Translations under genes and position numbers: made by a program | Notes under the pieces: model-generated | What the model was told of the DNA's origin: nothing | The model's database searches: none | The model's input: the letters and a program-made list of their open reading frames with translations, nothing else | Source of the DNA: Desulforamulus reducens MI-1 | GTDB lineage: Bacteria > Bacillota > Desulfotomaculia > Desulfotomaculales > Desulfotomaculaceae | Direction of reading: 5' to 3' | Assembly: GCF_000016165.1 (NCBI RefSeq) | Contig: NC_009253.1 | Location: 2,638,332-2,702,331 of the forward strand | DNA: 64,000 bases | Shown here: in pieces, positions 6,009 through 11,629 of the stretch | Layout of the letters: every line of letters starts with the position of its first letter | Position numbering within the stretch: the first letter of the stretch is position 1

Positions 6009-8150
6009 TTAACGAAGCAGTTGCAGTACGCCTTGAGGCTGTTGGTTGGCTTGTGCCAGCATAGCCTGAGCTGCCTGGGAGAGGATGTTGTTCTTGGTGA
6101 ACTCCATCATTTCCTTAGCCATATCTACGTCACGGATACGGGATTCAGCAGCGGTTAAGTTTTCGCTGGAGGTACCCAGGTTGTTAATAGTGTGCTCCAG
6201 ACGATTCTGGAAGGCTCCAAGCTTGGAACGTTCGGCAGAAACTGCCTCAATAGCATCGTTAATGACACTTACCGCTGCCGTGGCTTTTGTATGGGTAGAA
6301 ACATCCAATGCAAATTCAACATTTTTATTGTCAGTTCCATTGGAAACATTTTCGAGTTTTACGTAATTAGCTACTGATCCATTCTTAGCTGTTACAGCAC
6401 CCTCTGAAGTATCTCCACTCACTTTAAGGGCTTTAGCACGCATATCTTTAATATCGATAGAGAAGCTTTGAGCTGTATTTGCACCAATTTGCATTGTAGC
6501 CTTAAAATCAGCAGTTGCATCCTTACTTACATCAAGCTTTATAGTATTCCCAGCAAACCCAGTTGAAGCTGAAGTAACAACCAAGTTTACCGTTCCATCT
6601 GAGCTAAAGTTTTTACCTAGATTAACATCATTTACCAATTTAGCATTAAGATCCGATTGTAGCGCTAATAACTTATCCACAGTTTCTTTTGCTGTTAAGC
6701 CTTTAACATCGATAGCAAAATTAGTCTCTAACCCTGATTTGGCTGTTGCATCACTTGTATAATTTCCTAAAGAGCTATCATAAAAGCCAATTTTTTGATC
6801 ACCTATTGTAATAATTGAACCCTCAGTAGGTGTTCCATCAAAGTTAAAACTGCCTGTTGCAGCTGCGGTTGCAGTAATATCTGTAACACTGGCTCTAGTG
6901 CTACCTGAGAATGCACCATCAGCATTTGCGGTAAGAGTAAGTACACCAGCAGCATTGGAAAGTGTGTAGCCATTTATTCCACTTGCGCCCACCTGGTTAA
7001 CCACTGCTGTTGCCATGTCTGTAGCATTTGCTGCACTAGCTACATCGACTACAAAATCAGCCTGTAATGCAGCTTTTGCTTCAACAGAATTAGCGTAGGT
7101 AGTATTTCCACTATCCCAAAATGCAATTTTCTTATCAGCCAATGTGATGAAAGAACCCTCTTGAGCAACGTTAGTAAAGGTAATCACACCTGTTGCAGCA
7201 ACACCTGTAACACCAGCTACACCAACACCGTTACTTTGTTGAGCAGTAGCACCAACGTTACCAAAGGATGCGTTGGTTGAAGTCTCTGCAAATTCAAAAG
7301 CATTGTTTGTAGCACCTTGAGCTAGCGTACCTGTTGCCTTTAAACCTGTACCTTCAGCAGAAAACGAAATGTCCGCAATTGGACTTCCACCTACTGCAGC
7401 TGCAGCATTAAAAGCAGCTACTAAACCGTCCCTTAATTTTGTAGCATCGGCAATATCTGCGGTATTAATATCCAAGGTAACAGCATTTCCGGCTGTAGAA
7501 GAAAGGTTACCAGTTGTAACCGCACCGACTTTTAGAGTTACTGTCACTCCACCAAATGTAAATGTCTCTGTATCAGCAACACCCGCACCTACATTGATTG
7601 CCCCTGAATCCCAAACTGCGGCTACAGCATCAGTACCATTCACACCACCTGTTACGGAAGCATTAGTAGCAGCTGCTGCTGATCCACCTGTAAGTGCAAC
7701 ACCGGATTTGGTAGCATTTGCTGTAATCTGACGTCCGCCATTCAGTAATTTCTGTGTGTTAAATTCGGTGGTGTTACCAATACGGTTAATCTCTGAGGTT
7801 AGCTGGTTAATTTCCTTTTGAATTTCATCGCGGTCAACGTTTACGTTGGTATCGTTAGCAGCCTGGTTTGCTAGTTCACGCATACGCTGCAGAATACTGT
7901 GGGTCTCATTCAGTGCGCCTTCAGCAGTTTGGATCATGGAAATACCATCTTGAGCGTTACGACTAGCTTGATCTAAGCCTCGGATCTGAGCACGCATCTT
8001 TTCAGAGATAGCTAAACCAGCAGCATCATCGCCGGCACGGTTAATGCGCAGACCAGATGATAATTTCTCTAAAGCTTTGCTTCCATTATCGCCATTGATA
8101 CTTAACTGACGATATGTGTTAAGGGCTGCAATATTATGGTTAATTCTCAT
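6009..8150 (-). CDS. Flagellin 1 (large, 713 aa)
   Basis: Major filament subunit. The N-terminal D0/D1 region ([17 protein letters not shown], residues 1 to about 140) and the C-terminal D1/D0 region ([17 protein letters not shown] to [10 protein letters not shown], about 100 residues) are canonical. The surface-exposed middle is very large, Ala/Thr/Gly-rich and Cys-free. It contains a duplicated module: residues 320-390 and 432-500 share EGSxITxxDxKIxFxDS followed by similar text. AAGGAGGG precedes the ATG. A GGA-loop hairpin in the 75-nt leader suggests CsrA control. The gene lies downstream of csrA and is probably cotranscribed from the sigma-28 promoter at 8561-8587. Confidence 0.95.
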
Positions 8151-9203: not shown

Positions 9204-9638
9204 TTATTTTTTAGGTAAATGCTCTTGTTTGTAGGTTCCTTGCAGAAAAAATTGGGCCAAACGAAAGCCTTGAAGCAAACCTTCCCGAAAGGTAGCATTC
9301 ATGGACAGGGCATTTAAGTTACCAGTGATCTCCTCAAAGGAATAAAAGATTTCCTCAATATGAGGGTGTCCATGTTCCTTTAATGTTTGGTTAACCTCTT
9401 GCAGTTGATTTTTTAGCCGGTTATAGGTTTCCAACTCCGATTGGTTTAAAAAGGCTTCAAGATTGGTTCCATTGTCAAACTTAATTTGATCCACCGGGTT
9501 GTCCTGCAAAGATGTCGGAAGTTTTTTGTCTCTATTCAGTGCATTAATAAACATCTCAATATCCGCTATTTGCATTTTTTCAAGCCTGGGTACCAATTGA
9601 GCCAGGCCTTCCCCCTTTCTGTACCTGGTTAACTCCAC
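9204..9638 (-). CDS. Uncharacterised protein between the two flagellin genes
   Basis: I do not recognise this 144-aa protein. It has no signal peptide, Cys or membrane segment. It is predicted mostly helical, with a central Gln/Glu-rich helix (ETYNRLKNQLQEVNQTLKE) and a C-terminal hydrophobic helix (FREGLLQGFRLAQFFLQG). It starts at GTG 9638 behind GAGGC-AAAGG. It is not FliW or a FliS-like chaperone by sequence that I can see. Its place inside the flagellin cluster suggests a motility role, but nothing in the protein proves it. Confidence 0.6.
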   Translation of the reverse strand: MELTRYRKGEGLAQLVPRLEKMQIADIEMFINALNRDKKLPTSLQDNPVDQIKFDNGTNLEAFLNQSELETYNRLKNQLQEVNQTLKEHGHPHIEEIFYSFEEITGNLNALSMNATFREGLLQGFRLAQFFLQGTYKQEHLPKK

Positions 9639-9753
9639 AAGACCTTTGCCTCAATGCAATGGGACTTTTGTCTTATTATTGATAATTTTCACTATTCGAC
9701 AATTGGATGCTTATTCCTTGTTATTTAAAGCATAATTATTAGAAAATATTAGT

Positions 9754-9880
9754 AGACCCTGATGCTTATGGCATAGGGTCTTTTCTCAGCAAGTCAGAAA
9801 GTATAAAACTTTCCGACTTGCATAAGGGCAAACTAAGGCTCTGCCGGCGTCTAAAAGACTTGGCGGAGCCAAGTTTTTCT
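9754..9880 (+). repeat. Three tandem strong hairpins (possible ncRNA or mobile palindromic element)
   Basis: H1 (9754-9781): AGACCCT/AGGGTCT with inner ATGC/GCAT, followed by TTTTCTC. H2 (9789-9821): GCAAGTC-A-GAAAGT pairs with ACTTTC-C-GACTTGC. H3 (9837-9870): GGCTCTGCC pairs with GGCGGAGCC over 9 bp with an inner GTCT/AGAC stem, followed by AAGTTTTTCT. H1 and H3 look like plus-strand terminators, yet no plus-strand gene ends here. Confidence 0.55.
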
Positions 9881-9939
9881 AATTGGAATCTACTGTTGTC
9901 ATTGCAACATAATTGTTGTCGTGATTTAAAGCAATAAAA

Positions 9940-9966
9940 AGAGACCCTAGAAGGTCTAAGGTCTCT
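9940..9966 (-). terminator. Terminator of flagellin 2
   Basis: On the minus strand, AGAGACC and GGTCTCT form a 7-bp stem followed by TTTTTATT, 17 nt after the flagellin 2 stop. Confidence 0.85.
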
Positions 9967-9982
9967 CTGTATAGTTGATGAA

Positions 9983-11629
9983 TTAACGTAGCAGTTGCAG
10001 TACACCCTGGGGCTGCTGGTTGGCTTGGGCCAGCATAGCCTGGGCTGCCTGGGAGAGGATGTTGTTCTTGGTGAACTCCATCATTTCCTTAGCCATATCT
10101 ACGTCACGGATACGTGATTCAGCGGCGGTCAAGTTTTCGGAAGAAGTGTTTAGGTTGTTAATGGTGTGCTCTAAGCGGTTTTGTACAGCACCCAATTTGG
10201 ATCTCTCGGAAGAAACATTCTTGATAGCAGAGTCAAGTGAAGTCAGAGCTGTAGAAGCACCCCCAGCAGTAGAAATATCAACGCCGGAAATTCCAAGAGC
10301 AGCTGAACGCATATCACCGATTCCAAAAGTAATGGTTTGACTACGATTTGCGCCAATCTGGAAGGTCATTCCACCATTACCTGCAGCTTCTGTTTGAGCA
10401 GAACTTAAACCTAAATCTGAAACAGCGGTCTGTCCAGTCAGATCTTTTAAATTGATCGAACCACTTGGGCTATTAATTTCAAAGCGCCCATCATCAGTAA
10501 CAGTAACGGTAACTGCTTCAACATAACCTTCCTGACCTGCAGTTTTAGCTGTGCCAGTATTGTAGGTATTAATTGCGGCATTAATTTGAGTTTGAAGGGC
10601 AGTTGCTGCGCTAGCCATGGTATCTCCATTGTTTACAGTTAAGGCACCAGATTGTCCAATTAAGGTATCACCAAGGTACACATCAAATTTTTGCGCAGCA
10701 ATATTTGTACCATTATATTTATCTGTACCAAGGTTAGCTGCAGCGGATACTGCTCCATCAGTTTGCGAGAGTAGCTTTGCTCCTACAGATGTACCAGCTG
10801 CAATAGTTGTTACAGTTACCTCAGATTTGGTACCTTGTGTACCACTTTGTAGAACCATTTTATTAGTACCATCAAGGTAACCAGAAATGTGAGTAACGTT
10901 CTTTCCAGAATTATCAATTGCTGTATTAATAGCATTAATAATGGTATCCTTCGCTTTATTAAGCGTGGTTGCATCTGCACTTGATAAGTTGGAATTAAGT
11001 AACGATTTTTCCTCTGTGGTTAACAAAGTATCCCAGTTTACGTCAATTTTTTGTCCATCAATTGTTAAAGTATCAGTACCAAAAGTTAAATTTGCACCCG
11101 ACCAGTCACCTTTCAGAGCATTAGCGCCTGTCATTGTTGCAGCTGTAAGCTTACCTACAACTCCACCTATCGTTGTATTGGCACCAACTGCCGCCCCTGC
11201 AGCGCCTTTTAAAGAACCGTTTAACAACTTCTGAGTGTTAAATTCTGTAGTATTACCAATGCGGTCAATTTCACTCTTTAACTGTGTTACTTCATCCTGT
11301 AGGGCTTTACGGTCATCGGCAGTGTTGGTACCGTTAACAGACTGGTCAGCCAATTCGCGCATACGCTGCAGAATGCTATGTGTTTCATTTAAAGCACCTT
11401 CAGCCGTTTGAATCATAGAGATACCATCCTGAGCGTTACGAGCCGCTTGATCCAGTCCACGGATTTGGCCACGCATTTTCTCAGAAATTGCCAGACCAGC
11501 AGCATCGTCACCGGCACGGTTGATGCGGAGACCGGAAGAAAGTTTCTCCAGGGCTTTGTTGGTTTGAATACCATTGTTACTTAACTGACGATAGGTGTTA
11601 AGGGCTGCAATATTGTGGTTAATTCTCAT
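9983..11629 (-). CDS. Flagellin 2 (548 aa)
   Basis: Second complete filament subunit. Its N-terminal 130 residues and C-terminal 95 residues are almost identical to those of flagellin 1 ([17 protein letters not shown]..., [17 protein letters not shown]..., [10 protein letters not shown]). The middle (about 145-440) is unrelated to flagellin 1 and about 165 residues shorter. GGGAGGAATAACAC precedes the ATG. It has its own sigma-28-type promoter (11731-11757), a GGA-loop hairpin leader and its own terminator, so it can be expressed separately from flagellin 1. Confidence 0.95.

Follow-up and report, generated by a model that had tools for sequence, protein, structure and literature searches.

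The intergenic region at positions 9754–9880 of the window (the whole 64,000 nt stretch of Desulforamulus reducens MI-1 DNA that was analysed) carries three tandem hairpins beside which no gene appears to need a terminator, raising the question of what these structures are. An earlier note, made from the sequence alone, had described the three hairpins, and all were found to fold where it placed them with a stability far beyond chance. The minimum free energy (MFE) of the region 9740–9890 is -61.5 kcal/mol for the plus strand (z = -6.9) and -62.3 kcal/mol for the minus strand (z = -8.6), and was reached by none of 200 shuffled sequences. On the plus strand, H1 (positions 9754–9781, followed by TTTTCT; the part spans 9754–9786) resembles an intrinsic terminator, and H2 (GCAAGTCAGAAAGTATAAAACTTTCCGACTTGC; positions 9789–9821) is indeed a long near-perfect stem, 33 nt with one mismatch. 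H3 (positions 9837–9870) is separated from H2 by a linker (ATAAGGGCAAACTAA; positions 9822–9836) and is followed by the tail AAGTTTTTCTAA (positions 9871–9882), giving it, like H1, the look of a plus-strand terminator. The genes on either side, a flagellin gene (positions 9983–11629) and an unnamed open reading frame (ORF) of 144 aa (positions 9204–9638), were confirmed to lie on the minus strand. As the flagellin gene also has its own minus-strand terminator at 9938–9968, H1 and H3 serve no plus-strand gene at this locus. A second flagellin gene is present in the window (positions 6009–8150) on the same strand as the first, and the two have near-alike ends and differing central regions.

The D. 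reducens MI-1 genome, a single contig of 3,608,104 bp, was searched at the DNA level, which identified 40 places scoring 73–273 bits, none of which, other than the window itself, reaches across H1. H1 occurs once in the genome, and its position in the other copies is taken by unrelated hairpins with T-runs. The three hairpins, which had been read as a single modular unit, are thus not one: the part that recurs only begins at the first G of H2 and stops at the terminal CTAA (positions 9789–9882, 94 bp, plus strand). H1 lies outside it and is the target: the element inserted behind it. It is an orphan terminator-like hairpin, and the copy in the window opposes the direction of both flanking genes.

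A covariance model (R1) found 66 matches scoring at least 46 bits. At E ≤ 0.01 the number rises to 93, and the weak matches among these include six opposite-strand echoes of H2 from copies already counted. The copy number is therefore about 60–70, and the flanks are unrelated between copies. The element is ~95–115 bp in length with boundaries GC...CTAA or TTTA, and falls into a short subfamily, GGGCAAACTAAGG ... TTTTTCTAA, to which the window copy belongs, and a long subfamily, GGGCAACTAAGG ... TTTTCTTTA, in which most copies have an extra inner hairpin; the right-end tail is kept as TTTTTCTAA or TTTTCTTTA across copies. Seven of the short copies share one and the same sequence from GCATATC to CTAA, indicating that amplification was recent. 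A search of the genome and its relatives had been suggested in the earlier note, with dispersed copies as the mark of a mobile element and no other copies as evidence against one, and many dispersed copies were found. Of the two possibilities it had raised, a non-coding RNA (ncRNA) or a mobile element, the second is borne out by these copies, their unrelated flanks and the empty sites described below, and an origin as a single-copy ncRNA is excluded. It had matched the sequence to no known family, and likewise no Rfam family matches the repeat.

The best explanation, to which we assign a probability of roughly 0.85, is that the repeat is a non-coding, non-autonomous mobile element with hairpin ends and with intrinsic terminators as its targets; this figure covers the element and its targeting, leaving the enzyme apart. 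A search for autonomous copies, in the form of a left end with no nearby right end, recovered decayed or truncated copies only. The recurrent neighbour genes of the copies include no transposase and belong just to common families, such as ABC transporters. No copies were found in plasmid, phage or viral sequences, the viral scan having used the exact linker of the long subfamily and not that of the window copy.

The ends of the element were fixed by comparing occupied and empty sites, in a search that covered 13 occupied sites in one species. Three pairs with clean junctions were found between genome G006 and genomes G002 and G005 (L237/L246, L232/L268 and L233/L247, the occupied site given first), and in each the joined left and right flanks of the occupied site equal the empty site, with no target-site duplication. 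A further pair (L231, occupied; L249, empty) agrees save for small indels. The pair L227/L265 apparently represents two different copies, not an empty site, and L234/L261 is an example of a shared copy. The empty sites place the left boundary at the first G of H2 and the right one at CTAA, such that the tail stops at the exact insertion boundary, and there are no terminal inverted repeats. A miniature element of a DDE transposase was rejected, as both terminal inverted repeats and target-site duplication are absent from the occupied/empty pairs, and H2 and H3 are different hairpins. The orthologous locus in G008, consulted for the age of H1, is without the element, and the intergenic alignment there was uninformative.

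The insertion points were found to lie behind terminator-like structures. Among the 63 own-genome copies having flanks, 79% have a same-strand hairpin directly upstream at ≤ -8 kcal/mol and 67% at ≤ -12 kcal/mol by a simple energy filter. The corresponding shares are 23.5% and 14% for T-run ends between genes and 18% and 5% for random intergenic positions, in controls drawn from 400 kb of the genome using a crude gene caller; looser controls gave 28% for random positions and 25% for T-rich positions anywhere. As the intergenic T-run control is much lower, T-runs alone do not account for the targeting. The upstream hairpin has a median of -15.3 kcal/mol, the median gap between its end and the insertion point is 3 nt, and in 94% of own copies at least four of the last eight bases before that point are T. 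By the energy filter, about 20% of own copies have no strong hairpin upstream. In other genera, the hairpin is present upstream of 67% (-8) and 53% (-12) of 57 copies, and three identical copies in G189 follow the same trend. One copy, L239, was inserted directly after the end of an older copy.

None of the 63 copies falls within a predicted ORF. A same-strand gene lies upstream of 51 of them at a median distance of 57 nt, and the window copy is among the remaining 12. Purifying selection removing insertions elsewhere may exaggerate the apparent targeting. Co-orientation with replication was seen for 55 of the 63 copies (87%) and 298 of 368 genes (81%), thus a replication-strand preference was rejected, since the gene bias is enough to account for the figure.

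H2 is supported as a helix by covariation. In an alignment of 28 sequences across genera (A2), 7 of the 10 pairs of the H2 lower stem show double compensatory changes, 91.9% of cells are paired, and the covariation score is 0.512 compared with at most 0.094 for slid pairings. Members of A2 were picked for paired H2 ends, which favours the helix, and the slid and shuffled controls allow for this bias only partly. In the own-genome alignment (A1), the H2 signal is weaker, but no shuffle reaches it on three of the five measures. H3 was delimited from its fold and from alignments A1 and A3, and is misaligned between the subfamilies in R1, so the covariation count rests on H2. The linker was delimited in A2 and A3, and its core, AAGGGCAA, is near-invariant in the copies sampled there. 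Copies of the Desulfosporosinus type have a differing left end (ATACTAGTCAGAAAGTATA...), and the statement on the H2 helix covers left ends of the GC...GC type. Many copies hold a second palindrome, around CGTGCGAAGACAGTGTCTTCG, inside their hairpin loops (L109–L215 in Desulfosporosinus; L367–L371 in G219).

The distribution of the repeat is patchy, with high copy numbers where it is present. In eight congeners, R1 gave 69 (as a lower bound), 48, 25, 4, 3, 2, 0 and 0 matches among the best 70 candidates per genome. Across the phylum, 24 of 249 genomes and 18 of 187 genera carry the repeat at E ≤ 1e-4 among the best 21 candidates per genome. An exact linker pattern was found in 110 DNA stretches. 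Most are true copies, from Desulforamulus, Desulfosporosinus and various Bacilli, and a few are chance matches in other DNA, e.g. in Colwellia, Sulfurimonas and Extibacter.

By these observations and the exact ends, the element lands in one orientation, immediately behind the T-tract of an intrinsic terminator, precisely and with no target-site duplication. We infer that it moves in trans; neither a mobilising enzyme nor an autonomous relative was found. An enzyme supplied in this way would recognise the folded single-stranded ends, H2 and H3, and could recognise the target by its likeness to the right end of the element itself, namely a hairpin, a T-rich tract and a purine. An element placed behind an existing terminator, and itself ending in a hairpin and T-rich tract, would be expected to do little harm, which would account for the high copy number. 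The best-fitting mobiliser would be a non-DDE recombinase working on folded DNA, an assignment for which the odds are about even. More tentatively, the repeat may belong to a family of small elements, in the phylum of D. reducens and in Bacilli, that recognises terminators by structure and is moved by a recombinase that is neither of the DDE nor the Y1 HUH type and is not a group II intron reverse transcriptase (RT). The mobilising enzyme could have been lost or gone unrecognised in any carrier, and a missing HMM match in one genome is no proof.

The strongest alternative is a miniature element of the IS200/IS605 type (Y1 HUH), or a REP, for which a Y1 transposase or RAYT resident in the genome would act in trans, and this is possible though unlikely. 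Y1 single-strand transposition fits the lack of duplication and of terminal inverted repeats, the hairpin near each end and the T-rich right tail, features shared with IS200/IS605-derived miniature elements. Y1 genes exist in the genus and in nine carriers of other genera, and CTAAGTTTTCTGTAA is an IS200-type right end in one congener. However, no element was found within ~1.5 kb of the Y1 genes tested in the genus and these nine carriers, no copy lies near any of the Y1/RAYT genes examined, and no ends are shared with a resident Y1 element in these genomes, bar one weak right-end resemblance (L078). The single Y1 gene of D. reducens is within an IS605-type element that has a different right end. 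Two single-contig carriers, G189 with its three identical copies and G268, have no PF01797 match, although later gene loss is possible, whereas congeners G001 and G004 have Y1 genes and no R1 match. The repeat also differs from the IS200/IS605 miniatures in that its left hairpin starts from the first base, its target is a terminator structure where theirs is a short fixed sequence, and no transposase is linked to it.

REPs of the GTAG and CGTC families are likewise short, palindromic, intergenic and high-copy, and are often found 3' of genes. A REP is defined as a 20–40 bp palindrome with a GTAG or CGTC end tag, and these families were not listed from Firmicutes in the REP/RAYT survey (PMC3733652 for each of these points). 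In contrast, the repeat has no such tag, has two unlike hairpins in fixed order and has no neighbouring RAYT. The REP/IS200 type proposed for this locus in the earlier note is therefore not borne out, given the lack of an end tag and of association with Y1 genes, and given that no Y1 gene was found in the two single-contig carriers.

A non-autonomous derivative of IS110/IS1111, moved by a DEDD recombinase and guide RNA, is improbable. IS1111 insertions add no bases, folded sites such as attC and REP are the targets of some of them (PMC11187229), and PF02371 proteins are abundant in eight of nine carriers tested. However, no protein of this family (PF02371) was found in the draft assembly of G006, which has ~69 copies. 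A typical guide RNA region together with ends would not fit into so short a repeat, subterminal inverted repeats are lacking, and terminators have shape, not sequence, in common. In G219, moreover, the repeat is the target of an IS110-type element.

Slightly less probable again is a retroelement inserted through the machinery of group IIC introns, which insert precisely, in the sense orientation, at terminator motifs directly after intrinsic terminators (PMC4424553). The repeat follows the same target rule, with precise insertion in the orientation of the terminator. Group IIC introns are, however, far longer, with a ribozyme, differing ends and usually an intron-encoded protein, and neither an Rfam group II intron match to the repeat nor an intron-encoded protein in the D. 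reducens genome was seen. The only RVT_1 protein found in this genome (L223; C1:1302912–1303529, 342 aa) carries the motif IGNLTSQ, which we take to resemble the RTs of diversity-generating retroelements, thus L223 is possibly derived from one of these rather than being an intron protein. Copies are present in G005, in which an RT was not found, and a terminated transcript would not be expected to end as the element does, beyond its T-run at a conserved CTAA. Lastly, a functional RNA (a 3' UTR element or sRNA) spread through ordinary duplication would fit the covarying helix, the 3'-end hairpin and T-run and the position after genes, but is very improbable given that the occupied/empty sites are precise, that unrelated sites hold identical copies, that the distribution among species is patchy and that no Rfam family matches.

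The modular structured repeats of pneumococcus, SPRITE, BOX and RUP, are also comparable, and SPRITE resembles a terminator and shows enrichment 3' of genes. According to the available part of their description (PMC3049150), BOX and RUP differ in having inverted repeats and target duplications, no sequence common to these repeats and the present one was noted, and insertion behind existing terminators is not described. Each family tested fails on a defining feature, in a comparison that covered the open-access literature, and a prior description may exist.

Insertion behind terminators is already known for group IIC introns, and its occurrence in a tiny repeat with no known machinery suggests a second, independent route to such low-harm sites. 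In its carriers the mobile element supplies dozens of 3' ends with additional hairpins, its copies may be transcribed, and annotation may mistake them for terminators or ncRNAs. Because exact ends and empty sites are known, the search for the enzyme is open to direct test.

The repeat is itself a landing site in at least one genome: in G219, five of five copies (L400–L404) have an IS110/IS1111-type element (375 aa) within the linker, with the junctions GCATAAGT / IS / GTGCAACTA and GT on both sides. Separately, the D. reducens genome carries an IS110-family element of ~1.79 kb with a 434-aa transposase frame in eight near-identical copies (L386–L393; e.g. C1:368624, 907009 and 3070618). The end of this element, ...TTGAGGGAGG, is always 7–11 nt upstream of an ATG, a position that would fit insertion into Shine-Dalgarno sequences, with the element bringing along a replacement.
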